Below are positions 2-32,593 of a stretch of DNA of 33,182 nt, piece by piece. Origin of the DNA: Verrucomicrobiota bacterium (lineage in GTDB: Bacteria > Verrucomicrobiota > Verrucomicrobiae > Limisphaerales > UBA11358); contig JACZKP010000044.1 in assembly GCA_014860005.1 (NCBI GenBank), forward strand, positions 1-33,182. The letters run 5' to 3'. The notes under the pieces are model-generated. The model worked only from the letters and a program-made list of their open reading frames with translations. It was not told the origin of the DNA and searched no databases. Positions within the stretch are counted from its first letter, which is position 1. Each line of letters opens with the position of its first letter. The position numbers were made by a program, and so were the translations under genes.

Positions 2-3000
2 GTCATGGCCGTCGGTCCTGGCGCGAATCCCGGCATCCTCCAACCCGGTGCGCGCGGACGTGTGCCGGTTTACTTCGAGGGATTCCTGAAAGATCGTGGT
101 GAGGGTGGAGTCCAATTCAGTGTCGGCAGTCTGACCGCGGACGATACGTTGATTGCAGACTGTGGCTCTCCCGCGCCCGGAATTCCGAATGAATTCAAAT
201 TCCCGCGCACTGGCGTCAAAGCGTTCGATCCTCACAGTTTTCTCACCAACCTTTGTCCGCAATCACTCTTCAGTCCGAACTGGTCGCAACTGAAGGAATC
301 TTCGCAACCCGAAACCGCTGATGGCGCTGGCTGGCACACCGTCTGGCAAAACGTCATCTCCAATGCCGGCCCGCTCTGGGCTGACTACGTGCTCATGCTC
401 GGCGACAACATGAATCACCTCGCCAAGATCGGCCAGCTTACCAACGACCCCGCCGCGTTGTTCAACTTTGAAGTATTCCAAGCCACCGCCGCGCTGAATC
501 CCGTCCGCACGCTTGCCGGCACAGTTGATGCCTCTGCGCCGTCGGCGGGAATGCCGCTGGTTTTTCGTCGCACCTATGGCCAGCCGATTCTTTCTCGTTA
601 CAAGCTCGGCCCGCTGGGTCGCGGGTGGTCGCACAACTGGGACATCTCCGTTCAACACCTGACGCAATTCCAAGGCGTGGTGATACACGGACCGAGCGGA
701 GCGGATCGTTTCTTTGGTCGCTACAACGACGGCCGTTACACCGCCACCGGCAGCGACACCGGCCAACTCATCGTCACGAACGGCCTGTTCCGGCTCATCG
801 AAGCCGATAAAACTGTTTGGGTCTTCACCACGAATGCTCCCGCTGGCCAACTCCAATACGTCGAAGACCCCAACGGCAATCGCATCACCTGCGGCTACTC
901 CGGCGCGCAGTTGACCTCGCTCACCCACACCAGCGGCAAGCAACTCCTCCTGCAATACAACGGCTCAGGTCGCCTCTCGCAAATCACCGACCCGCTCGGT
1001 ACGGGTGCTGCCGATGACCGCATCACCACCTACGAATACGACGGCTCGGGCGAACACCTCATCCGCGTCACCGCGCCCGGCAATCGCGTGACCACCTACG
1101 GCTATCACACCACCGGCATCCCGCAGCGACTTCACGCGCTCACCAACGTCACCTATCCCGACCTCACGCAGGACTCGTTCACTTACGACGCGCAAGGCCG
1201 CCTCATCCAGACCTCGCAGAACTGCTGCGGCGGCGCGCAACAAGTCACCTACGCCTACGATTCCGCCGGTACGGTCACCGTCACCGACGCCACGGGCCGC
1301 GCCACGCAACTCCTTTACGGCCTCGGCGGGCAACTCGCCCAGGTGCGCGACGGCGAGGGCCGCATCGTCAACTTCACCTACGACGACCTCGCGCAACTCA
1401 CCCAGCTTCTCGGTCCGGGCGGTGAGCGTTACCGTTACGGCTACGACGGCGGCGGCAACCTCGGCGGCATCGAAGACCCGCTCCGTCAGGTCAACAACTT
1501 CACCTACGAACCAAACTTCAACCGCCTCGCCCAAGTCCGCGACGCGCGCGGGAACGACTTGAAGTACGCCTACGACAATCGCGGCAACCTCACCGCCATC
1601 ACCTACGCGGATGCCACCGCGGAGCGGTTCGCCTACGACGCGCGCGGCAACGTCGTCACGTCCACCAACCGTCGCGGCGGCGTCATCACCTACGCATACA
1701 ATCCCGCCGGCCAGCTCACGTCCAAGGACTACTCCACCACGCCCGGCATCACCGACTTCACCTATGCTTACGACCTCGCGGGCAGTCTCACGAACGCCAC
1801 GTATTGGAATCCTCAACTCTCAACTCAAGAAACCCTCAACCTGCAATACGACCCCGCCACCGACCGCCTCACGCGCATCGAATATCCCGGCGGCAGATTC
1901 TTCGCGTTTGATTATGACGCCGCCGGACGCCGGACACGCCGCAGCGATCAGGACGGGCACATCAGCGCTTACCTCTATGACCCGCTGGGGCGGCTGGCGC
2001 GCATGACGAATGAGTTGGGCCAGATCATCGTGAACTACGATTACGATGCCGCCGGACGACTGAGCCGCAAGACGCTCGGCAACGGCGTGTTCACCACCTA
2101 CAACTACAACCAGGCCGGGCAGGTGACGCAGCTTGTTAATTCCCGCGCTGACAGCAACGTCCTCTCCAGCTTCAGCTACACCTACGATGCCTCCGGCCGC
2201 CGCGCCTCCATGACCACCCAATATGGATACCCTCTCCCCCCTGGGGGAGAGGGCCAGGGTGAGGGGGCGGTCACCTACGGCTACGACCCGCTCGGCCAGT
2301 TGACCAGCGTGACCTACCCGAACAGCCGCGTGGTGAACTACGCCTACGACGCCGCCGGCAACCGGACTCAGGTCACGGACAATGGCGTCCCCGCAACTTA
2401 CGCCGCAAACACGCTCAACCAATACACGAGCGCGGGCGCGGCCACTTTTGGCTACGACCTCGACGGCAACCTCACCAATCAACACTCAACTCTCAACCCT
2501 CAAATTTCAACCAACTACACTTACGACATTGAGAACCGCCTCATCGGCGTCGCCACGCCCGCCGACACCTGGACCTACACCTACGACGCCTTCGGCAATC
2601 GCATCGCCGCCACGCACAACGGCCAGACCACGCGCTACGTCATTGACCCCAGCGGCCTCGGCAACGTGGCCGCCGAATACGACGGCGGCGGCAGCCTCAT
2701 CGCCCGCTACGAACACGGCTTCGGCCTGCTCGCGCGCAGCGACGCCGCGGGCGACCCGGCCTTCTACACCTTCTCCGCCATCGGCCACACCAGCGAACTG
2801 ACCGACGCGTCCGGCGCGGTGGCCAACGCCTACGCTTACGACCCGTTCGGCCTCTCGCTCGCGAAGACCGAGGCGATTCCGAACCCGTTCGAGTTCGTCG
2901 GCGAATTCGGCGTGATGAACGAGGGGAACGGGTTGGAGTTCATGCGGGCGAGGTTTTACAACGGAGGGCCGTCGCGCTTTTTGAATGAAGACCCCCTTGG

Positions 3001-5257
3001 AATTCTTGGTGGCGTGAATGAATACCTGTATGCACTTAACAACCCCGTAGAATTGCAAGATGCTACGGGTCTCATCTCAAGTCCTGACACATGGCTTTCA
3101 CCTAATGAAACGCGGAACACCGTTCACGGGCCGATTTCTCCCGTTCAAGACCCGTGGCGAACCCAACCGAATCAACGATTAGGTGCGGGGCTCGTAAGAG
3201 CCATGCATGAGCCGCGATTCGTTAACGCCTTCAATCAGAATCTCACAGCGCCTTTGGCGATTGCTCCACTCACAATGGCTGTCGCTGTCGCACAGCCGTT
3301 GATCGCTGGTAAACTCACGTTCACGATGGGGGTAAATCTTTTGCTCGCTTCCGCAGGCTACGCGCCCCTTCTGCACCGCAACGATCCTCATGCTGAACGT
3401 GTTTACAACCACAATACGCAATCGTGGCAACTCGTCCGCTCACGCGACCCGAACGACAAACTCGGGCCGTCAGGATATGGCAGTGCGGGCTACCTGCCGG
3501 CGGGCGGCGTGATGGCCTATCAAATCCGGTTCGAGAATGTGAGCGACGCCACCGCCCCGGCCCAGCGCGTCATCGTCACCGACCCCCTCGACCCGAACCT
3601 CGACCTCAGCACCTTCGAGTTGACCGAGATCGCCTTCGCCAATCAAGTCGTCCCCGTCCCCGCCGGCCTGAACCATTACGAGACGCGCCTGGCCTTCACC
3701 GTCACCAACCAGACCCTCATCCCCCTGGGTGACGTGACCGCCTTCGCCATCGCCCCGCCGCCCACCAACGCCATCCTCGTCGAAGTGGCCGCGAACCTCG
3801 ACGTGCCCACGCGCCTGCTGACCTTGACCCTGACGGCCATTGACCCCAACACCGGCTGGTATCCCGAAAACCCGTTGACCGGTTTCCTCTATCCCAACGA
3901 CGACACCGGCCGCGGCGACGGCAGCATCAGTTTCCTCGTCCGCCCGTTGCCCGGCCTCCCAACCGGCAGCACCATCACCAACAAGGCGGACATCGTGTTT
4001 GACTACAACGACCCGATCATCACGCCGCTGGTGTTGAACACTATTGACGGACACGCGCCGACGAGCGCGGTTCAGTTCTTGCCCGAACTCAGCGGGCGCA
4101 TCTTCCCGGTGCAATGGACCGCCCAGGACGATCCCGGCGGCAGCGGCCTGGCCGGGGTGGATGTGTTTGTGACGGTGGACGGCACGAACACGGTGCAATG
4201 GCTGGATCGAACGCTGGCCACGAGCGCGTGGTTCATCGGCGAACGCGGACACAGCTACGCCTTCCATAGCGAGGCGCGCGATAACGTCGGCAACGTGGAG
4301 GCTGCGCCCGCCACGTTTGACACCGCGACCTTCGTTCCCACCAATGCGCCCATACTGGAAGCCGTGACGAACTTCACCGCCATGCCTGGTTCGTCGTCGG
4401 AATTCACCAACAGCGTGGCGCAAGGCAGTCCACTTGGTTCATGGGCCTTCAGCCTCGGTGCGGGCGTGCCGGCCGGCGCTTCGGTGAACCCGACCAACGG
4501 CGTGTTCCGCTGGACGCCTTCCTGCGCCCAAGCCACCACCACGAACGTCATCACGGTCTGGGTGACTGATACCGGACGTCCCACCGTGATGGACGCGGTG
4601 AGCTTCACGGTTGTCGTCAGTGAATGTGTGCAGCCGAGCCTCGGCCAGCAGGTGTTGCTCGCGGGCGACAGCGGGCGCGTGCCCATCTTCCTGATTTCCA
4701 GCGTGGCGCTCACGAATCTGGAAATGACCTTGATCGCGCCACCAGGCCGGTTGACGGACTACAATGTCGAAATCCTGGTGCCGCAAGTTTGCAGCAACTC
4801 AATAACACCGGTGGGCAATGGATTGCACCGGCTCGAATTCGTGGCCTGTGCCGGTCAATGGCTGATTGGCACGCAGCAGATCGCATGGCTGAATTTCACC
4901 GCGCCCTCGAATCAATCATCGGCCTTCGTGAAGCTGGAGTTTGACGACCTCGTTGGCTACATGGCTGATGGAACACCCGTCGCCAACTTCGCCCCGCAAT
5001 CCGGCCGGGTGGTCATCGTGGGCGAGGAGCCATTGCTGGAGGCGGTGCGGACGGCAGATGATCAAGTGCAACTGCTGCAATACGCCATTCCCGGCAGCCT
5101 GGTGGAAGTGCAATGGACAACCAATCTTCCGCCAACCGACGACTGGGTGACTTCCGGCGAAACCACGCAGTCGAATCTCGTTCAGGAAACCGGCATATTT
5201 GCGCCCGTTGGTCCGGGGCTGTTCTTCCGGGCGATACGCACGAGCGGTGGGCCGTGA
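2..5257 (+). CDS. RHS/YD-repeat giant extracellular protein (5' partial)
   Basis: The frame is open to the left edge and the first ATG (position 5) is not followed by a signal peptide, so the true start is probably outside the window. From that ATG, about residues 1-180 are an N-terminal region of the type found before RHS cores in large secreted proteins. A DUF6531-like entry (R-R-T-Y-G then G-R-G-W-S-H-N-W) begins near residue 181. Dozens of YD repeats (motifs such as YDAAGR and YAYD) follow to about 950. The RHS core-closing motif (ARFYNGG, then SRFLNEDPLG, then NNPVELQDATG) lies at about 980-1022. Unlike toxin-type RHS proteins, some 730 more residues follow: a DPNDK domain (about 1148-1340), Ig/cadherin-like domains (about 1348-1540), a possibly cohesin-like segment (about 1540-1675) and a terminal W...FFRAI domain. 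Likely role: surface or secreted adhesin-like shell protein. I see no toxin domain. Two short repeat families are translated inside it. Confidence 0.9.
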   Translation, partial: VMAVGPGANPGILQPGARGRVPVYFEGFLKDRGEGGVQFSVGSLTADDTLIADCGSPAPGIPNEFKFPRTGVKAFDPHSFLTNLCPQSLFSPNWSQLKESSQPETADGAGWHTVWQNVISNAGPLWADYVLMLGDNMNHLAKIGQLTNDPAALFNFEVFQATAALNPVRTLAGTVDASAPSAGMPLVFRRTYGQPILSRYKLGPLGRGWSHNWDISVQHLTQFQGVVIHGPSGADRFFGRYNDGRYTATGSDTGQLIVTNGLFRLIEADKTVWVFTTNAPAGQLQYVEDPNGNRITCGYSGAQLTSLTHTSGKQLLLQYNGSGRLSQITDPLGTGAADDRITTYEYDGSGEHLIRVTAPGNRVTTYGYHTTGIPQRLHALTNVTYPDLTQDSFTYDAQGRLIQTSQNCCGGAQQVTYAYDSAGTVTVTDATGRATQLLYGLGGQLAQVRDGEGRIVNFTYDDLAQLTQLLGPGGERYRYGYDGGGNLGGIEDPLRQVNNFTYEPNFNRLAQVRDARGNDLKYAYDNRGNLTAITYADATAERFAYDARGNVVTSTNRRGGVITYAYNPAGQLTSKDYSTTPGITDFTYAYDLAGSLTNATYWNPQLSTQETLNLQYDPATDRLTRIEYPGGRFFAFDYDAAGRRTRRSDQDGHISAYLYDPLGRLARMTNELGQIIVNYDYDAAGRLSRKTLGNGVFTTYNYNQAGQVTQLVNSRADSNVLSSFSYTYDASGRRASMTTQYGYPLPPGGEGQGEGAVTYGYDPLGQLTSVTYPNSRVVNYAYDAAGNRTQVTDNGVPATYAANTLNQYTSAGAATFGYDLDGNLTNQHSTLNPQISTNYTYDIENRLIGVATPADTWTYTYDAFGNRIAATHNGQTTRYVIDPSGLGNVAAEYDGGGSLIARYEHGFGLLARSDAAGDPAFYTFSAIGHTSELTDASGAVANAYAYDPFGLSLAKTEAIPNPFEFVGEFGVMNEGNGLEFMRARFYNGGPSRFLNEDPLGILGGVNEYLYALNNPVELQDATGLISSPDTWLSPNETRNTVHGPISPVQDPWRTQPNQRLGAGLVRAMHEPRFVNAFNQNLTAPLAIAPLTMAVAVAQPLIAGKLTFTMGVNLLLASAGYAPLLHRNDPHAERVYNHNTQSWQLVRSRDPNDKLGPSGYGSAGYLPAGGVMAYQIRFENVSDATAPAQRVIVTDPLDPNLDLSTFELTEIAFANQVVPVPAGLNHYETRLAFTVTNQTLIPLGDVTAFAIAPPPTNAILVEVAANLDVPTRLLTLTLTAIDPNTGWYPENPLTGFLYPNDDTGRGDGSISFLVRPLPGLPTGSTITNKADIVFDYNDPIITPLVLNTIDGHAPTSAVQFLPELSGRIFPVQWTAQDDPGGSGLAGVDVFVTVDGTNTVQWLDRTLATSAWFIGERGHSYAFHSEARDNVGNVEAAPATFDTATFVPTNAPILEAVTNFTAMPGSSSEFTNSVAQGSPLGSWAFSLGAGVPAGASVNPTNGVFRWTPSCAQATTTNVITVWVTDTGRPTVMDAVSFTVVVSECVQPSLGQQVLLAGDSGRVPIFLISSVALTNLEMTLIAPPGRLTDYNVEILVPQVCSNSITPVGNGLHRLEFVACAGQWLIGTQQIAWLNFTAPSNQSSAFVKLEFDDLVGYMADGTPVANFAPQSGRVVIVGEEPLLEAVRTADDQVQLLQYAIPGSLVEVQWTTNLPPTDDWVTSGETTQSNLVQETGIFAPVGPGLFFRAIRTSGGP
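1811..1840 (+). repeat. CTCAACTCTCAAC-type short repeat inside the RHS gene, copy 1
   Basis: A C/A/T-only stretch interrupts the YD repeats and contains the 13-mer CTCAACTCTCAAC at 1812-1824. It is translated as NPQLSTQ. The same 13-mer recurs at 2485-2497 in a different reading frame, so the similarity is at the DNA level rather than the protein level. Origin as a dispersed genomic repeat is inferred. Confidence 0.6.
2230..2265 (+). repeat. Palindromic REP-like element translated in frame within the RHS gene
   Basis: The arm CCCTCTCCCCC (2230-2240) pairs perfectly with GGGGGAGAGGG (2243-2253) around a 2-nt loop, followed by a GGCCAGGGTGAGGG tail. It breaks the YD-repeat pattern, being read as PLPPGGEGQGEG between TTQYGY and VTYGYD. 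The sequence resembles the CCCTCTCCCC...GGGTGAGGG elements that are scattered between genes in many bacteria. Its presence in the coding frame suggests insertion of a mobile palindromic repeat without loss of the frame. Confidence 0.75.
2480..2512 (+). repeat. CTCAACTCTCAAC-type short repeat inside the RHS gene, copy 2
   Basis: A run containing only A, C and T carries the same 13-mer as copy 1 (2485-2497), then CCTCAAATTTCAACC. It is translated as HSTLNPQIST between two YD units. The different frame from copy 1 points to a nucleotide-level repeat. Confidence 0.6.
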
Positions 5258-10889: not shown

Positions 10890-11155
10890 TTTCTCTTTTC
10901 GATTGGAGTTGGGGCTGGCCTTTTCTTCACGCCCCCGGTTTCCTTGCCGCGTCCGGATGCAGGATAGGGCTCTGCGGAAGCGCAACCTGAGCGGCCTCCG
11001 GTCCAAGGGTTGAGTTCATCAACCATCCACGCCCAGGCCGCAAGGCTTGGGTCTTTTGTCTGCCGTTGGTGGACTCCTCAACCCTTGTTCCAAAGCGAAA
11101 AACTTCCCCGCCTTGAACCCCACCCGCCGCCGCACCACACTCCCGCCTAAATGAA

Positions 11156-20958: not shown

Positions 20959-23013
20959 TCAGTTGTGGAGGCTCGCCAAAGCGCTGACCGGGCGCGAAGG
21001 GAGAATTTCGCGCGGTTGGCCGTTCAGCACGGGAGACTGGCCGACGGCGCGTGCCAGCAATTGCCGGTAAGTCGCCAAGGCCAGCAGCGGCCAGGCGTTC
21101 CGGTACATGTCGTACTTGAGATAAAATACTTTCGGAAAACCTGTCCCGGTGATTTCGTCTTCGGTCCAGGAACCGTCGGGGTTTTGCGTGCGAACGAGAT
21201 ACTCGATCCCGCGTTTGAGGCTTGGCAGGTGCGGATTGTCAAACGCACACAAGCCCATGACCGCCCAGGCGGTTTGTGAAGCGGTGCTCGGTCCCTGACC
21301 TTTGAACACCGGATCGTCGTAGGTATTGCAGCGTTCACCCCAGCCGCCGTCAGCCTGCTGGACGCTTTCGAGCCAGTTGCGCGCCTGGAGCAACCACGGC
21401 TGGCTCATGTCCAGATTCAACGCGCGCAAACCGCGCAACACCTGCCAGGTGCCATAAATGTAATTCACTCCCCAGCGCCCATACCACGAGCCGTCCTCCT
21501 CCTGCTGCGTGCGGATATAGTCGAGCGCCTTCTGCACCTGCGGGTGATCGGGACGCCAGCCTTCGTAACCGAGTAATTCCAGAATCCGGGCGGTGATGTC
21601 GGCACACTCCGGGTCCAACATCGCGTTGTGGTCGGCGAACGGAACCTTTTCCAAAATGTTCTTGGTGCAGTCCTTGTCGAATGCCGCCCAGCCGCCATCT
21701 TTGCATTGAAAAGCCATCATCCAATTCAATCCGCGCAGGAAACACTCGTCGCGACGGGCGGGATTGTCCGTCGGGATCTTTCGCAGGGCCAGCAGCACCA
21801 TCGCCGTGTCATCCACGTCGGGATTCCACTTATTTTCAAATTCAAACACCCAGCCACTGGGCTCGACGTCCACCGCATTTTTGTACTGCCAGTCGCCGCG
21901 GAAACGGATTTCCTTGGACATCAGCCATTCCGCCGCCTGTTTGATTTGCGGATGATCCTCCGGTACGCCGGATTCGCGCAGGCACATTGTGACGATCGCC
22001 GTGTCCCAAACGGGCGAAAGGCACGGTTCAATCCGCACGCTATCCGCCGTTTCATGCTCCAGCTTCTTCAACTCCCGCTCCGCGCGCCTCACCTGCGGAT
22101 GATCATCGGGATAACCGAGCGCCTTGAGCGCGATGAGCGCGTTGAGCATGGCGGGATAGATGGCCGCCAGGCCATCCGAGCCCTCGAAACGTTCCAGCAT
22201 CCACTGTTCGGCTTTTTTCAAGGCGCGTTTGCGGAAGGGATGGATGCTGTTTTGGGCGAACCACTCGGCAAATTTGTGCAGGCGGTCGAGCCACAGGAAA
22301 AAATTCCGCCACGACAGCCGGTCAGGGTCGGGTGGCAGAGCCAGGTCGCGCTCGTGAAATCCCTGCGGGTAGAGTTCGTCAAGGGTGACGTTGTTTTTCG
22401 GCCGGCGCGTGGGTTTGAAATGATTGATGATGGCCAGCGGCACGAGCATGGCGCGTGACCAGTTGCTCATGTCCCAGAAATTCACGTGAAACCACTTCCC
22501 GATAAGCAGCACTTCACACGGGATCGTCGGAACATATTCCCACGGGAACAACCCCAGCAGCGCGAGATACAACTTGGAGAAGGTGTTCATCCGGGGCACA
22601 CCTCCCAGATTCAACGCCACGCCGCGCGCCCGCAACATGCGGGGGTCCGTGACGGCCACACCCGCGAGTTTGAGTGCCAGATACGCCTTGATGGTGGCAT
22701 TTACTTCAGCCGGCCCTCCGTGGTAGATATTCCAGCCGCCGTCGGCCAACTGCATGGAAAACAGGTGGTTCGCTGCCTTGCGCTGCCATTCCCGGTCCAC
22801 ATTCCCGTTCCAATGGTGATACGCCACCATGTCCGAGACGAGGGTGGAATCCACCATCAATTCACCCACCCAATAGCCCTCCGGCTTTTGGATGTTAAGC
22901 AAATAATCCTGCGACCGCCGCAAGGCGGTTTCCCAGGTGGACCTGCTTTGGGTGCCGAATTCGGGTTCTTGCTTCAAGTTCCCGATTAGGCTGGGTTCAG
23001 TCGAAAAAGACAC
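20959..23013 (-). CDS. shc: Squalene-hopene cyclase
   Basis: From the chosen GTG start, 684 residues, normal for the family. It cyclises squalene to hopene or hopanol at the membrane. The catalytic D-x-D-D motif reads WNPDVDDTAMVL, and several QW motifs occur (QLADGGWNIY, QCKDGGWAAFD, QEEDGSWYGRWG, QQADGGWGE, QNPDGSWTE). The late GTGFPKVFYLKYDMYRN is typical. The frame stays open to an ATG at 23163, adding 50 residues (MVCIMSPSG...) that have no counterpart in known cyclases and cover a perfect palindrome. I therefore prefer the GTG at 23013, though neither start has a ribosome site. No other hopanoid genes (hpnCDE) lie in the window. It heads a minus-strand run into pyrK and pyrD. Confidence 0.93.
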   Translation of the reverse strand: MSFSTEPSLIGNLKQEPEFGTQSRSTWETALRRSQDYLLNIQKPEGYWVGELMVDSTLVSDMVAYHHWNGNVDREWQRKAANHLFSMQLADGGWNIYHGGPAEVNATIKAYLALKLAGVAVTDPRMLRARGVALNLGGVPRMNTFSKLYLALLGLFPWEYVPTIPCEVLLIGKWFHVNFWDMSNWSRAMLVPLAIINHFKPTRRPKNNVTLDELYPQGFHERDLALPPDPDRLSWRNFFLWLDRLHKFAEWFAQNSIHPFRKRALKKAEQWMLERFEGSDGLAAIYPAMLNALIALKALGYPDDHPQVRRAERELKKLEHETADSVRIEPCLSPVWDTAIVTMCLRESGVPEDHPQIKQAAEWLMSKEIRFRGDWQYKNAVDVEPSGWVFEFENKWNPDVDDTAMVLLALRKIPTDNPARRDECFLRGLNWMMAFQCKDGGWAAFDKDCTKNILEKVPFADHNAMLDPECADITARILELLGYEGWRPDHPQVQKALDYIRTQQEEDGSWYGRWGVNYIYGTWQVLRGLRALNLDMSQPWLLQARNWLESVQQADGGWGERCNTYDDPVFKGQGPSTASQTAWAVMGLCAFDNPHLPSLKRGIEYLVRTQNPDGSWTEDEITGTGFPKVFYLKYDMYRNAWPLLALATYRQLLARAVGQSPVLNGQPREILPSRPVSALASLHN

Positions 23014-23066
23014 ACGGGTAGCCTGTAATTCTGAGCTGAAAGTGTAAAGACGATAATCCGCGGCAC

Positions 23067-23084
23067 TTTTGGTAATTACCAAAA
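23067..23084. promoter_or_regulatory. 18-bp perfect palindrome upstream of shc (possible operator)
   Basis: TTTTGGTAATTACCAAAA is fully self-complementary, and a partial second half-site (AATTACC) follows on its right. It sits 54 bp before the preferred shc start. On the minus strand TTGGTA within it is followed after 18 bp by GATTAT, a weak promoter match, so a bound repressor would cover the -35. The shape resembles FadR/GntR-type operators (TGGT...ACCA) but the spacer differs, so the regulator is not identified. Confidence 0.5.
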
Positions 23085-23471
23085 TTACCTCGCTCAATCG
23101 GAAAATCTCACTTCTCCACAACCGGATTGGGGAGGTGCCGCTTGGGCTCATAATGCACACCATTTAGCGAGCGATCTGGGTAGGCATTGCTGCTATTTTA
23201 AGGCAATCCCCTGCGCCCAATTATGTGGAATCCGGCGACAAATCCAATCTGGTCGCCGAGCACACTCCCTCCCAAAAATTTCCGGGCAGCAGGATTCGGT
23301 AAGCCTGATTGACCTGATTTCGTCCCCAACCGGTGGCTTCGGAGCTTGATTTGAACGGGGCATCAGGCGGTGCTGTGGCAAGCCAGTTCAAAAAAAGTTC
23401 GCTTCACGTGCCATAAATCGGGTACACCATGCGGCCCGCGGTGAACTGACCGCCGGTTTCGATTGAAAAAC
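23085..23471. other. Divergent intergenic region between shc and hisG
   Basis: Nearly 390 bp to the hisG ATG, holding the regulatory region for both directions. Part of it is the doubtful 5' extension of the shc frame. Beyond that I see no further gene, RNA or strong promoter pair. A TAAAAT (near 23197, minus sense) is a lone -10-like hexamer. Confidence 0.4.
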
Positions 23472-26728: not shown

Positions 26729-26766
26729 GCAACGGCCCGCAGCCCTGTGATGACCAGCGATTACTC

Positions 26767-28203
26767 ATGATTCAACAGCGCAACGGGATGATGGTTTCTG
26801 ACATTTTCAGTCGGATATTGATGCTTCTGCTCCTCGGAGTTTGTCCGTGGCTCAGTGAAGCGCAGTCAAACGCGGCGACCTCCGAAACGGCAGCAAAGAA
26901 ACTCTTGATCATCGCGCCGGATGCTTTCCACGGCGCGCTCGTGGATTTTGTGACGCACAAGCGAGGCTTGCTGCCGACGGAACTGGTTTCGCTGGAGAAA
27001 GTTCTGCGCACGACTGCCGGTGTGGATGATCCCGAGAAACTGAAACGATTTCTGTATGGCGAGTGGCGGAAGCATTGGGCCGGTTATGCGCTACTGGTGG
27101 GCGACGTGGATGTGTTGCCGGTGCGTTACATGGTGCTCGACCGAGTCACGCCGGCGGCGTTCGATTACGCGTTCTATCCCAGCGACCTTTACTATAGCGA
27201 TCTGGCCAAGGCGGACGGTTCCTTCGACGATTGGAACTCGCAGAAAGACACCTTTCACGCGGGTTACTTCGGGGAGGTGCGCGGCGAGAAGAACAAAAAT
27301 GACCCGATCAATTACGATCAAGTGGATTACCAGCCGGACTTGGCGGTGGGACGCTGGCCGGTGAGTACGCCGGAGGAAGTGCGTGTGGTGGCGGCGAAGA
27401 CGGTGACTTACGAACAGAGCGTCCTGGCCAACACCAGTCCGCATCTGCGCCGCGCGGCATTGTTCGCCGTCAGCGGTTGGGTGGACACACGCGGATTGCT
27501 GGATCGCGTGGCGGCGAGACTGGCGGGCGATTGGGAGATTGAGAAAAGCTATTACTCGGATGCGCGCCGCCAATCCGGCACCCCGCCGCCGGATCGCGCG
27601 CAGGTGCGGGAATTGTTCAACCGCGGTCTGGGCCTGGCCATTCACACCGGTCACGGCCAGCCGGATTCGTGGGAGCAAGCTTTCTTCCTGCGCGACCTTG
27701 ATCGCATTGCCAACGCCGACGCATTGCCCGTGGTCATGTCGGCGGGTTGCAGCACGGCGTATTTCGCGCCGCTGGCGCCGTATGATGGTTACGTGGATGT
27801 GGAGGGCAAGGAGCACATTGGGACGGACAAGAAACAGGTCTTCACCGCGCCGCCGCCGCCACCGTCACCCTATCAGCGCGGGCGCTACAATCCGACCGGA
27901 TTGGGGGAACAGATTCTCAAGCGCAGCGCGAACGGCGCGGTGGCTTACATCGGCTGTAACACCGGCAGCCAGCCGTGCGGGCTGACGCTCGTCGAAGGAT
28001 TCGTCAGTGCATTAGCCGCGGCCAGTGAGCCACGCCTGGGGGATTGCTGGGCCGAGGCCATCCGGCATTACTACGCGAAGGAACGGCTGGAAAGTTTGAA
28101 ACCGACTGCCGATTGGTATCCGCCGAGCATCTTCTTTCAGGGCATGAAATTCATGATGTTCGGCGACCCAAGCCTGCGTATGCCGACGGTTAATCCGCGC
28201 TGA
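26767..28203 (+). CDS. Secreted C25 (gingipain-type) cysteine peptidase
   Basis: 478 residues from the ATG at 26767. A hydrophobic signal stretch (ILMLLLLGVCPWL, cleavage near SEA-QS) shows export. The catalytic dyad of peptidase family C25 is visible: H296 in IHTGHGQPDSW and C328 in VMSAGCSTAYF, each at the end of a strand as in gingipains. The caspase-like fold is supported by LLIIAPDAF, YALLVGDVDVLP and PDLAVGRWPVSTPEEV. It ends almost at once after the domain (FMMFGDPSLRMP), with no type IX C-terminal sorting domain, no Ig-like domain and no propeptide of the gingipain kind. Other starts (ATG at 26788 or 26791) would give a shorter signal. The stop overlaps the facing release-factor-like gene by 14 bp. 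The substrate is unknown. Confidence 0.88.
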   Translation: MIQQRNGMMVSDIFSRILMLLLLGVCPWLSEAQSNAATSETAAKKLLIIAPDAFHGALVDFVTHKRGLLPTELVSLEKVLRTTAGVDDPEKLKRFLYGEWRKHWAGYALLVGDVDVLPVRYMVLDRVTPAAFDYAFYPSDLYYSDLAKADGSFDDWNSQKDTFHAGYFGEVRGEKNKNDPINYDQVDYQPDLAVGRWPVSTPEEVRVVAAKTVTYEQSVLANTSPHLRRAALFAVSGWVDTRGLLDRVAARLAGDWEIEKSYYSDARRQSGTPPPDRAQVRELFNRGLGLAIHTGHGQPDSWEQAFFLRDLDRIANADALPVVMSAGCSTAYFAPLAPYDGYVDVEGKEHIGTDKKQVFTAPPPPPSPYQRGRYNPTGLGEQILKRSANGAVAYIGCNTGSQPCGLTLVEGFVSALAAASEPRLGDCWAEAIRHYYAKERLESLKPTADWYPPSIFFQGMKFMMFGDPSLRMPTVNPR

Positions 28204-29282: not shown

Positions 29283-30638
29283 TTAGAGCCTTGCCAGTTC
29301 ACCCCTGCGCGCCCAGACTTTCTCGAAGGCCTTGACATATTGGTCCTCCAGTTCGGGAGCGTCTTCGTAGAACAAGGGCAGGTGCAGCGCGGTGCGGTTA
29401 ACCTGTTCCGTGCCGCGAAGGGTTGCGGGAATGTTGACCGGGTGATGCCACCACTTGGCCTGCGAGTAGAGCTTGAATTTGTGCTGCTCAGGGTAGCCCC
29501 CGGAGAATCCGCCGAACCTCACGCCTTCGGCCTGAAGCGCCTTCAGCGCCTGGTTGCGCGTAAACCCGGCTTTCTTCTCATCGAGCAACAGCATGTTGAT
29601 CGCGTAATAGACTCGCTTCATGTCGGACCGAATCCACGGTTCGCTCAAGCCCGGCAATTGCACCAAACGCTCATTCAACCGGCGCACCCGGCGGCTCACG
29701 GCGTCGTTCATCGCATCAAGACCACGGAGTTGCACGCGACCAATGGCGGCGGACAGAGGATGCATACGGTATTTCTGGCCAAAGCCCGTGCCGTCGTATT
29801 GACGATACGGACTGTTCTCCGGGAACGTCGGCGGGGCTTCATAATGGCCGAACGCCGTGGCCCGCTCGTAGTACTCCCTCGATTGATAGATCCCCATTCC
29901 GCCTTCAATCGTCGGCATCACCTTGGAGGCTTGAAAGCTGTAAATCGCCATGCTGCTCAACGTGCCTACTTTCTGGCCGCCAATGGAGGCCCCGTGCGCG
30001 TGCGCTGCGTCTTCACAGACGATCAAGCCTTTCGCTTTGGCCCAGTCGTTGATCTTGTCCATTTCACACGGCATGCCCCAGGAATGCATCGGCACCAGTG
30101 CGCGGGTGTTCGGTGTGAGTTTACGCTTGGCATGCTCGAGATCGAAGCAGGCCGTCTTCGGGTCCAGATCAATGAAGATGGGCACGAACCCAAAGAAGCG
30201 CATCGGCGCGATGGTCGCGAAAAATGTGTATGACGGCACCATGATCTCGCTGCCGGGCGGCAGGTCGAGCGATAGCGCGAAAAACATGGCGGTCAGCGCA
30301 CTCGTGCCGTTGATATGCGATTTCACAAACGGCGCCTGGAGATATTCTTTCCAGTCCTGCTCGAAGAGCGGCAGTTCCTGGTAAAACCGATTGCTGTCGA
30401 GGATTGAACCTACAGCCTTCTTTTCCGCTTCCGTGTAGCGCGGCCATCGGACCAACGCATTGAAGCGGTCATTGGGGAACGTCACCGACTTGCTGCCGCC
30501 GGCCACAGCCAGCGTTTCTGTTTTGGTCTGGCCAAGGCCCGGCGTGGCGACAGCTAAGACGGCAGCGGCGGTGGAACTGGTCTTGAGGAATTCCCGGCGC
30601 GTGACGACGGGCCGGTTGGAGGAAAATGAGTTCTTCAT
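29283..30638 (-). CDS. Tat-signal DegT/DnrJ/EryC1/StrS-type aminotransferase
   Basis: 451 residues from the ATG at 30638. The N-terminus carries a twin-arginine signal (VTRREFLKTSSTAAAVLAVA), cut perhaps near PGLGQ. A complete fold-type I PLP domain follows: the conserved NGTSALTAMFFAL near 120, VPSYTFFAT, the PLP-contacting VCEDAAHAHGA, and K239 in YSFQASKVMPTIEGGMG, the Schiff-base lysine. DegT enzymes normally make amino sugars on nucleotide-bound keto sugars in the cytoplasm, so export is odd; a Tat route would allow folding with PLP first. It lies 65 bp after the fucose-isomerase-like Tat protein on the same strand, and the two likely form one operon. The substrate is unknown. The alternative is a protein that lost catalysis, but the key Lys and Asp remain. 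Confidence 0.88.
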   Translation of the reverse strand: MKNSFSSNRPVVTRREFLKTSSTAAAVLAVATPGLGQTKTETLAVAGGSKSVTFPNDRFNALVRWPRYTEAEKKAVGSILDSNRFYQELPLFEQDWKEYLQAPFVKSHINGTSALTAMFFALSLDLPPGSEIMVPSYTFFATIAPMRFFGFVPIFIDLDPKTACFDLEHAKRKLTPNTRALVPMHSWGMPCEMDKINDWAKAKGLIVCEDAAHAHGASIGGQKVGTLSSMAIYSFQASKVMPTIEGGMGIYQSREYYERATAFGHYEAPPTFPENSPYRQYDGTGFGQKYRMHPLSAAIGRVQLRGLDAMNDAVSRRVRRLNERLVQLPGLSEPWIRSDMKRVYYAINMLLLDEKKAGFTRNQALKALQAEGVRFGGFSGGYPEQHKFKLYSQAKWWHHPVNIPATLRGTEQVNRTALHLPLFYEDAPELEDQYVKAFEKVWARRGELARL

Positions 30639-30703
30639 TGGGGTGGTCTTTCGGTTTGGGTAGTTCAACATTGTTTCAGCGCAGTGGTAATAGGGCAGGG
30701 GAT

Positions 30704-32164
30704 TCAACAATTCGTTCGGATCTCCAGTTCGTAGAGTTGCGCCAGCGTCTTCAGGTGACGCGCGAAGTCGCCACAATACAGCACCGGATGCGGGCCGCCA
30801 TAGACGCTGCATACGTCGGTCACACCTTCTATCTTGACCAGTGTGCGTGTGGCGCAGCCGCCGGTTGGCGGGCTGGCAGGCGAGGAAATCACCTCCCCGC
30901 GCCAGGCATCCAACTGATTCTTTCCGCTATGATACTTGCAGAGCGTGACGGTTTCACCACGCGGCCATTGCACGTCCAGCGCCAGCGTCTTGGGCATTTG
31001 ATGGAAAAACGGGCGCAAGTCATAGGCCGTTTCCTTGCCGCGCGGGCCGTGCAATCGCGTCGTGCAGGTGCAATGCGATGCGAAGTAAAGATTCTGCTCC
31101 GTGTCGAACTCGGGATTGTGCTGAAAGCCGCCCCGCCCGAAACAGTTCGCGCCCAGCATCAACGTGAGCGTGGCGTTCAAATCATTTTCGCAGCCGCACG
31201 GCACAAGATTGCCGTTGTTCAATGCAAAGCTAAGACACGGTTTACGATGTTTCAGCATCAAACACTCAATGGTGATGGCGTCGGCGTCGTGAAGCTCCAT
31301 GATCTTCTGGACGGCGGCATGGGAACGCACGGCGTCGCGAAAGGCATCATGGCTCATATCCGTGACTCGCCGTGCCCGGCGGCGCACCGAGCGTGCGAGC
31401 CGCTCCATCTCCGAGGACACCACCACTTCGTCGAATATCCGGTTGAAGTGATCCGTAGGCACGCCGTGAATGGGCATCCCGAAGAACGGTTCGTTGGCGT
31501 CGGCTTCCTGTTTGAGGCTGCCCGAGACACGCAACAAACGGCTCTGGCGCATCCGCGTCATCGCGTGGACTGCGCGTAATCCGCGTTCGAGCGCGTCCCA
31601 ATTCTCGATGGAATGGATGTATTGCATCCGCGGCGCGGTGCGGAAGTATTCCGGCGGCAACTGATGATTCGCGCCCACCGGCTGGTAGAGAATGATCGGA
31701 CCTTTCCACGCCTCAAGGATGGGCCGCAGCTTGGGGCTGAAACTGTTCCAGAAATTGAACAGTAACAGCGCGTCGGGTTTCGCGGTTTCGAGGCTGTTAA
31801 TGAATGCGCGAATGCCCGCGTCGGTGTAAATGGCCTGGTTCTCAAGCGCGAGCGTCACTTCAAGGTCGCGGGCCAGCTCGCGCAATCGCGTGAGGAATTT
31901 GGCCTGCTGTTGTTCCGGTGCGAACTGGTTACCCGGCCAGGTGAACCACTCGTGTTTGCTCCAATGATCTTCATTTTTGCCGGCCAGCACGATGTCCGCG
32001 GGCGGATAAAAGAACGCCCCCCGAATCAGCCCCGGTTTCTTTTTGCGCAGCGATTGATTCAGGCTGCCGGACGCGGCGGCAAAGCCTTCCAGTGGGAAAA
32101 TCGTCAGCGCGGCCAGTGCAGCGGCGGATTTCAGGAAAGTACGGCGGTCATGCTGAATGTTCAT
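30704..32164 (-). CDS. Tat-signal L-fucose/L-arabinose isomerase-like protein
   Basis: 486 residues from the ATG at 32164 (an in-frame start at 32194 would move the Tat motif inward). The signal HDRRTFLKSAAALAALTIF is of twin-arginine type. The C-terminal half resembles the FucI/AraA C-terminal domain: E300 in ITIECLML, E326 and D328 in GCENDLNATLTLML, H364 in FASHCTC, and H459 in VYGGPHPVLYCGDF. These sit where the isomerases bind Mn2+ and substrate. The first half (about 40-280) is divergent. The family match is distant, so sugar isomerase activity is inference; it might bind or modify a sugar acid outside the cell. It is upstream of the Tat-type DegT gene. A GAGGGAG sequence about 11 bp before the ATG could be its ribosome site. 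Confidence 0.75.
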   Translation of the reverse strand: MNIQHDRRTFLKSAAALAALTIFPLEGFAAASGSLNQSLRKKKPGLIRGAFFYPPADIVLAGKNEDHWSKHEWFTWPGNQFAPEQQQAKFLTRLRELARDLEVTLALENQAIYTDAGIRAFINSLETAKPDALLLFNFWNSFSPKLRPILEAWKGPIILYQPVGANHQLPPEYFRTAPRMQYIHSIENWDALERGLRAVHAMTRMRQSRLLRVSGSLKQEADANEPFFGMPIHGVPTDHFNRIFDEVVVSSEMERLARSVRRRARRVTDMSHDAFRDAVRSHAAVQKIMELHDADAITIECLMLKHRKPCLSFALNNGNLVPCGCENDLNATLTLMLGANCFGRGGFQHNPEFDTEQNLYFASHCTCTTRLHGPRGKETAYDLRPFFHQMPKTLALDVQWPRGETVTLCKYHSGKNQLDAWRGEVISSPASPPTGGCATRTLVKIEGVTDVCSVYGGPHPVLYCGDFARHLKTLAQLYELEIRTNC

Positions 32165-32383
32165 GGTGTGAATATCTCCCTCAGGGATGAGCAATGCCTT
32201 GCTCCTCTGATGCGACCCGGATTAGCGAGTGAGCCCTGTCTGTCCCGACTCATGCCGCAAACTTATGCCCGCGGGAGTCAGGGGTAAACGGTAAAAACTT
32301 AGAACGCCGCGTAAAAAACCATCGCGGGCCTCAAAGCCGGACGCGGTCCGGCGGGCCAGATCATTCGCCGCCAACAAAACTAA

Positions 32384-32593
32384 TTTGCCGAACACACGGC
32401 CCGGATGAACTATCGCGCGGTCGCCGAGCGCGGCTGGGCGATTGGCTCCGGCCCGGTGGAGTCGGCCTGCCTCCAAGGGCAAGGCCGGTTCAAACGCAGC
32501 GGCCTATTTTGGACGCCGCTGGGCTTGCGTCACCCGTGCGCCTTGATCGAGGCGCGCCAAAACGGTCACTGGGATAACCTATGGAATCAGTAA
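32384..32593 (+). pseudogene. C-terminal fragment of an ISKra4-like transposase
   Basis: The reading begins after an in-frame TAA (32381-32383) as FAEHTARMNYRAVAERGW and contains the tail motif AIGSGPVESAC, then RFKRSGLFW, then LRHPCALIEAR and NGHWDNLW before TAA 32591-32593. This order is typical of the C-terminus of ISKra4-like (UPF0236-related) transposases. About 70 residues of a protein several hundred long remain, so it is a dead scrap. An ATG at 32405 makes a small open frame but there is no reason to expect a product. Confidence 0.75.

Follow-up and report, generated by a model that had tools for sequence, protein, structure and literature searches.

Two genes in the 33,182-nucleotide stretch of verrucomicrobial DNA analyzed here (the window) lie 65 bp apart on the minus strand, and both encode proteins that begin with a predicted twin-arginine (Tat) signal. 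Do their closeness and their matching signals mark a pathway? The first-pass annotation had taken them for a unit that sends a sugar isomerase-like and a DegT aminotransferase-like enzyme through Tat. The first gene, P1 (32164..30704, minus strand), has an ATG start and encodes a Tat-signal protein of 486 residues, beginning MNIQHDRRTFLK, with a predicted L-fucose/L-arabinose isomerase fold and no Pfam family. The second, P2 (30638..29283, minus strand), also has an ATG start and encodes a Tat-signal DegT/DnrJ/EryC1/StrS-type PLP enzyme of 451 residues, beginning MKNSFSSNRPVVTRREFLK. The reading that we favor, with a probability of roughly 0.78, is that P1 and P2 belong to independent Tat-exported families and have been neighbors since P1 came between an older leader and P2, with no conserved pathway joining them.

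P1 has a predicted sugar isomerase fold and an altered metal site

Structure comparison of the predicted model showed that the L-fucose/L-arabinose isomerase (FucI/AraI) fold spans the whole P1 chain, which on this model is of that fold. Sequence profiles did not bear out the isomerase-like label: searches of Pfam, NCBIfam, and PDB sequences returned no isomerase family, with nothing above noise in Pfam or NCBIfam and no PDB match, and hhalign of P1 against AraA and FucI gave no significant match (probability about 0.2 on a scale of 100); of this comparison we kept nothing but the local pairing between H459 and FucI H528. Weak matches to RNase Z, RepSA, a PadR-like regulator, and xylanase were overruled by the fold. 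P1 and the FucI/AraA enzymes (PDB 6k1f, 1fui, 7cyy, 4f2d) are alike in predicted fold at 12 to 16% identity, but P1 differs from them in its Tat signal, in having no fixed neighbor genes, and in having no match to an isomerase sequence profile. We would not classify P1 as an L-fucose isomerase.

The family itself is sizeable. At least 645 relatives were found at E ≤ 1e-3; among the 120 listed, identity was at least 66%, and those with a protein name were all called hypothetical. Scanning genome contigs turned up 61 loci with P1, in Verrucomicrobia, Kiritimatiellae, Lentisphaerae, Hydrogenedentota, Planctomycetota, and a few other groups, while a class-wide search at E ≤ 1e-80 found P1 in 5 of 286 genomes, four of them at 37 to 38% identity. 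Distant relatives (24 to 32% identity where measured) were seen at four loci (L025, L026, L030, and L143), and the first three carry RR near the start, which suggests that exported proteins of the FucI fold extend beyond the P1 group.

To examine the active site we used an alignment of 58 rows, made of the 61 loci less eight (four fragments and L020, L042, L053, and L054), four distant relatives, and the P1 of the window. Among the residues that the first-pass annotation had named as catalytic, E326, H364, and H459 stood up, each present in 57 of the 58 rows with a gap in the remaining one; E300 (Glu in 44 rows) and D328 (Asp in 40) did not. We take the metal ligand set of FucI and AraA to be Glu, Asp/Glu, and His. 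In P1 this set is incomplete by sequence alignment: the Glu and the His are there, while the Asp/Glu position is Asn350, beside His349. The acid ligand of FucI (D361) and that of AraA (E333) align with Asn350/His349, and D361 pairs with N350 in both MAFFT modes, the residues being mapped by sequence motif at 12 to 16% identity. Both H349 and N350 are found in 57 of the 58 rows.

These changes lend weight to an alternative in which P1 is no isomerase at all and the fold now serves a different metal-dependent reaction, or binding. The replacement of the acid ligand by Asn with a conserved His next to it speaks for this alternative, as does C367, which is present in the P1 rows shown and absent from the four distant paralogues. 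On the other side, the retention of E326, H364, and H459 keeps metal binding plausible, and the correspondence to FucI and AraA is a motif-level one; we put the alternative just short of even odds. P1 probably accommodates a metal and a sugar-like substrate in an altered site (E326, His349/Asn350, H364, and H459), and would be a sugar-binding enzyme that depends on a metal, with or without isomerase activity. Of the sugar isomerase-like assignment, then, the fold survives in the predicted model, whereas the sequence profiles and the changed acid ligand do not agree with it.

P2 is a DegT-type enzyme with other neighbors elsewhere

P2 is a member of the DegT/DnrJ/EryC1/StrS family, matching PF01041 over residues 69 to 425 at 226.3 bits (cut-off 19.8; E = 9e-67), with 8gyh as its best match in the PDB sequence search (E = 1.5e-39). 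In an alignment of 27 rows, comprising 26 genome loci and the window, residues N110, H185, D210, H213, S234, Q236, and K239 are invariant; going by the DegT family, we take K239 to be the Schiff-base lysine and D210, S234, and Q236 to belong to the PLP site. The earlier assignment of P2 as a DegT-type PLP enzyme that keeps K239 was therefore confirmed. The predicted model of P2 was too poor for use (pLDDT 59.9). P2 has PF01041, the catalytic Lys, and the PLP-site residues in common with DegT sugar aminotransferases (perosamine synthetase 3bn1; 8gyh), but differs from them in its conserved Tat signal, by which it is predicted to be non-cytoplasmic. P2 would be a periplasmic transaminase-type enzyme working on free keto or amino sugars.

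At a first set of 16 P2 loci, other genes recur downstream of P2 on the same strand. A TIM-barrel gene is present in seven of them (L100 and L102 to L107) and a sodium-solute symporter gene in eight (L100 to L107), L101 having the symporter gene without the TIM-barrel gene. PF01261 was above cut-off in both TIM-barrel members scanned (L105 and L107), as was PF00474 in the single symporter examined in this way (L105). The genomes with these loci are labeled as Hydrogenedentota, planctomycete, or uncultured bacterium. By eye, a Sec-like start was seen in five of the seven TIM-barrel proteins; the starts of the other two (L103 and L104) are miscalled. From these gene orders, P2 with a PF01261-type TIM-barrel gene and a PF00474-type symporter gene emerges as a candidate conserved extracytoplasmic sugar cluster. 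It resembles what the first-pass annotation had in mind, with another isomerase, and is a better lead than P1 and P2.

One alternative is that P2 has its place in an extracytoplasmic sugar route with partners other than P1: in some genomes it would join the TIM-barrel isomerase-like protein, which has a signal peptide, and the symporter in making and importing a modified sugar, while P1 stands alone. The recurrence of both genes downstream of P2 and their Pfam assignments favor such a route; however, searching the window and the 10 P2 loci from its order (E ≤ 1e-5) turned up neither gene, neither is present at the remaining eight of the 16 loci, and one locus has the symporter only. We regard the route as tentative, with the odds leaning against it. 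Two other loci (L097 and L098) have an additional DegT gene immediately upstream of their P2 orthologue.

Among the loci examined, P1 and P2 are adjacent only in the window

The first-pass annotation rested its two-gene unit on shared export and spacing, and the spacing holds: the two reading frames are on the same strand, and the gap (30639..30703, minus strand) is 65 bp, which would allow co-transcription here. The pair itself was not found elsewhere when its order was checked in other genomes. No P2 match was present at any of the 61 P1 loci (tblastn, E ≤ 1e-3), 51 of which have at least 1.5 kb of sequence downstream of P1 and 53 at least 1.5 kb upstream. Conversely, none of 26 P2 loci had a P1 match (E ≤ 1e-30 for 16 of them and E ≤ 1e-3 for 10 more from the order of the window), two of these loci (L092 and L104) having less than 1.5 kb upstream. 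Genes at the P1 and P2 loci were called with a custom codon-usage caller. By these calls, and with contig ends included, P1 has no gene on its own strand within 250 bp at 26 of the 61 loci; the operon-like neighbors are mixed, no Pfam family occurring in more than three of the 45 (of 61) that were scanned.

Co-occurrence in the same genome is another matter. Among 320 genomes of the window's order, P1 is found in eight (E ≤ 1e-80), P2 in 12 (E ≤ 1e-110), and both in three, more than expected (Fisher p = 0.002, genome size not controlled). Of 30 genomes that bear P1, a DegT match of some kind (E ≤ 1e-20) is present in 29 and a P2 orthologue (at least 50% identity) in 15, none of which lies within the flanks examined around P1. 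Since the two genes co-occur in three genomes of the order and P2 orthologues accompany P1 in half of the P1-bearing set, a looser, unlinked functional tie between them is possible.

Among the P2 sequences found in genomes, the nearest (90% identity) is in G377, in a region (L131) that shares P2 and six further genes with the window in the same order and is missing P1. The common order is P2, methylpurine-DNA glycosylase, RF-1 domain, TPR, squalene-hopene cyclase (20959-23163 in the window, minus strand), and two dihydroorotate dehydrogenase-type genes. The 132-bp leader that precedes P1 in the window (32165..32296, minus strand) is 87% identical to positions 8383-8514 of L131, a degree of conservation similar to that of nearby genes, and in L131 it runs directly into the 5' region of P2. 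The two alignments meet at one point: the leader match ends at window position 32165, which is L131 8514, and the alignment on the P2 side begins at window position 30687, again L131 8514. What the window has in excess of L131 (30688..32164, minus strand) is therefore the P1 coding sequence with about 16 bp, its edge uncertain by a few bases, and the P1-P2 gap, from about position 30687 onward to P2, matches the 5' region of P2 in L131. An RNA element around the leader, P1, and P2 was considered and set aside, Rfam giving no match at E ≤ 5.

A gain of P1 in the lineage of the window is the simpler reading of this empty site, since P1 is missing from every other P2 locus examined; the argument is one of parsimony with a single syntenic genome. 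The converse, that P1 was lost in G377, is the less simple account. A distant P1 relative (32% identity) is found elsewhere in G377. L131 is also without the counterpart of most (26736-28181) of the peptidase C25 gene (26653-28203, plus strand), which suggests that the gain or loss of one gene is no rare event in this region; at that difference, the junction in L131 lies at 11020/11024 and the sequences are otherwise collinear. Composition gave no sign of a foreign origin of P1, whose GC3 of 0.727 falls within the range of seven other genes of the window (0.670 to 0.761). P1 grouped with L001 of Verrucomicrobia subdivision 3 (support 99/86; 54 of 62 rows), and this grouping, together with the matching composition, makes a donor close to this lineage likely. 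Under the reading that we favor, P1 would have arrived as a single gene between the older leader and P2, and the leader may now drive the reading of both genes. Directly upstream of the leader is a degraded stretch preceded by stops (32384-32590, plus strand), which had no Pfam match and which we provisionally call transposase-like.

These findings bear on the idea that P1 and P2 carry out a dedicated two-step pathway outside the cytoplasm, sugar to keto sugar and then transamination, with selection holding the genes together. Their spacing, their common strand, the RR signals on both proteins, and a co-occurrence above expectation within the order are what one would expect of it. Yet neither the P1 nor the P2 loci show any adjacency, the closest syntenic genome has the leader followed by P2 with no P1 between, and the metal site of P1 is altered. 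We rejected the pathway on the lack of linkage and the empty site, leaving it quite improbable, and the joint extracytoplasmic pathway proposed earlier is unsupported.

The twin-arginine signals are conserved in both families

The RR signals described in the first-pass annotation are present in both proteins and conserved in their relatives. The predicted signal peptide region of P1 (32075..32164, minus strand) covers the first 30 residues, with the motif DRRTFLK (R7/R8), and matches PF10518 at 22 bits (E = 1.4e-4), below the cut-off of 22.7. That of P2 (30546..30638, minus strand) covers the first 31 residues, with the motif TRREFLK (R14/R15); it scores 17.1 bits with PF10518, again below cut-off, and 21.0 bits with TIGR01409, above the cut-off of 16.7. 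Orthologues were checked for loss of the motif, and it is retained: an RR motif followed by a hydrophobic stretch is found in 60 of 61 P1 relatives, the exception (L042) being cut by a contig end, and R7 and R8 are present in all 58 rows of the P1 alignment. Likewise, R14 and R15 of P2 are kept in 27 of 27 rows and in all 30 aligned proteins. This conservation is far beyond chance, and TatC was present in six of the seven related genomes examined. That the motifs are not working export signals and both proteins stay in the cytoplasm is highly improbable, for although both fall below the PF10518 cut-off and TatC was not found in one genome (G011), the motif persists in both families across several phyla and TIGR01409 is above cut-off in P2. 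Tat export of both P1 and P2 is what these signals predict.

Two further features were seen at the N termini of the 60 P1 relatives. A lipobox-like [GAS]C lies within 35 residues after RR in 14 of them (e.g., L003, L012, and L060), and a CxxC lies just ahead of RR in 27, with MCESC-like starts in planctomycete loci (L028 to L032).

Sugar isomerases and DegT transaminases are usually cytoplasmic. The glucose-fructose oxidoreductase of Zymomonas is a sugar-converting enzyme that is exported by Tat with a tightly bound cofactor, though it differs from P1 and P2 in its fold and in its cofactor (NADP). PvdN and PtaA of Pseudomonas are PLP enzymes reported to be exported by Tat folded with their cofactor, PtaA being a periplasmic transaminase (PMC6206403). 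They act on pyoverdine side chains and have PLP and the Tat route in common with the predicted P2. Given that report, the loading of a cofactor before export should be no obstacle, and it is plausible by analogy that P2 receives PLP in the cytoplasm. Most likely, each of the two enzymes would fold and load its cofactor in the cytoplasm and cross the membrane folded via Tat, as in the reported cases of PvdN and PtaA. Outside, P1 and P2 would each act on free sugars or on keto or amino sugars.

Implications for sugar chemistry outside the cytoplasm

Both enzyme families, with their conserved Tat signals, are real and occur in genomes of Verrucomicrobiota, Planctomycetota, and Hydrogenedentota. 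Our literature search, mostly without subscription papers, found no paper on DegT or isomerase-like families that carry Tat signals in these phyla. The families offer a direct test of isomerase- and transaminase-type sugar chemistry outside the inner membrane, and the Tat-borne DegT family raises the question of how an exported transaminase would obtain its amino donor and keep its PLP. The locus also serves as a control lesson: the closeness and the matching signals of two genes are not evidence of a pathway.

A broader proposal is that planctomycete, verrucomicrobe, and hydrogenedentote types of bacteria use a set of Tat-sent, cofactor-carrying extracytoplasmic sugar enzymes, among them a FucI-fold family whose metal site is re-tooled, a DegT transaminase family, and, in some, clusters of DegT, TIM-barrel, and symporter genes, for amino- or keto-sugar chemistry before uptake. 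We consider it unlikely as it stands; if it were true, the arrival of P1 behind the P2 leader would be a recruitment into such a route.

Other genes of the window include one for an RHS-repeat protein (5-5257, plus strand) and one for a 3-keto-disaccharide hydrolase (PF06439; 18242-18874, minus strand), the latter unlinked to P1 and P2 and a further hint of keto-sugar chemistry.
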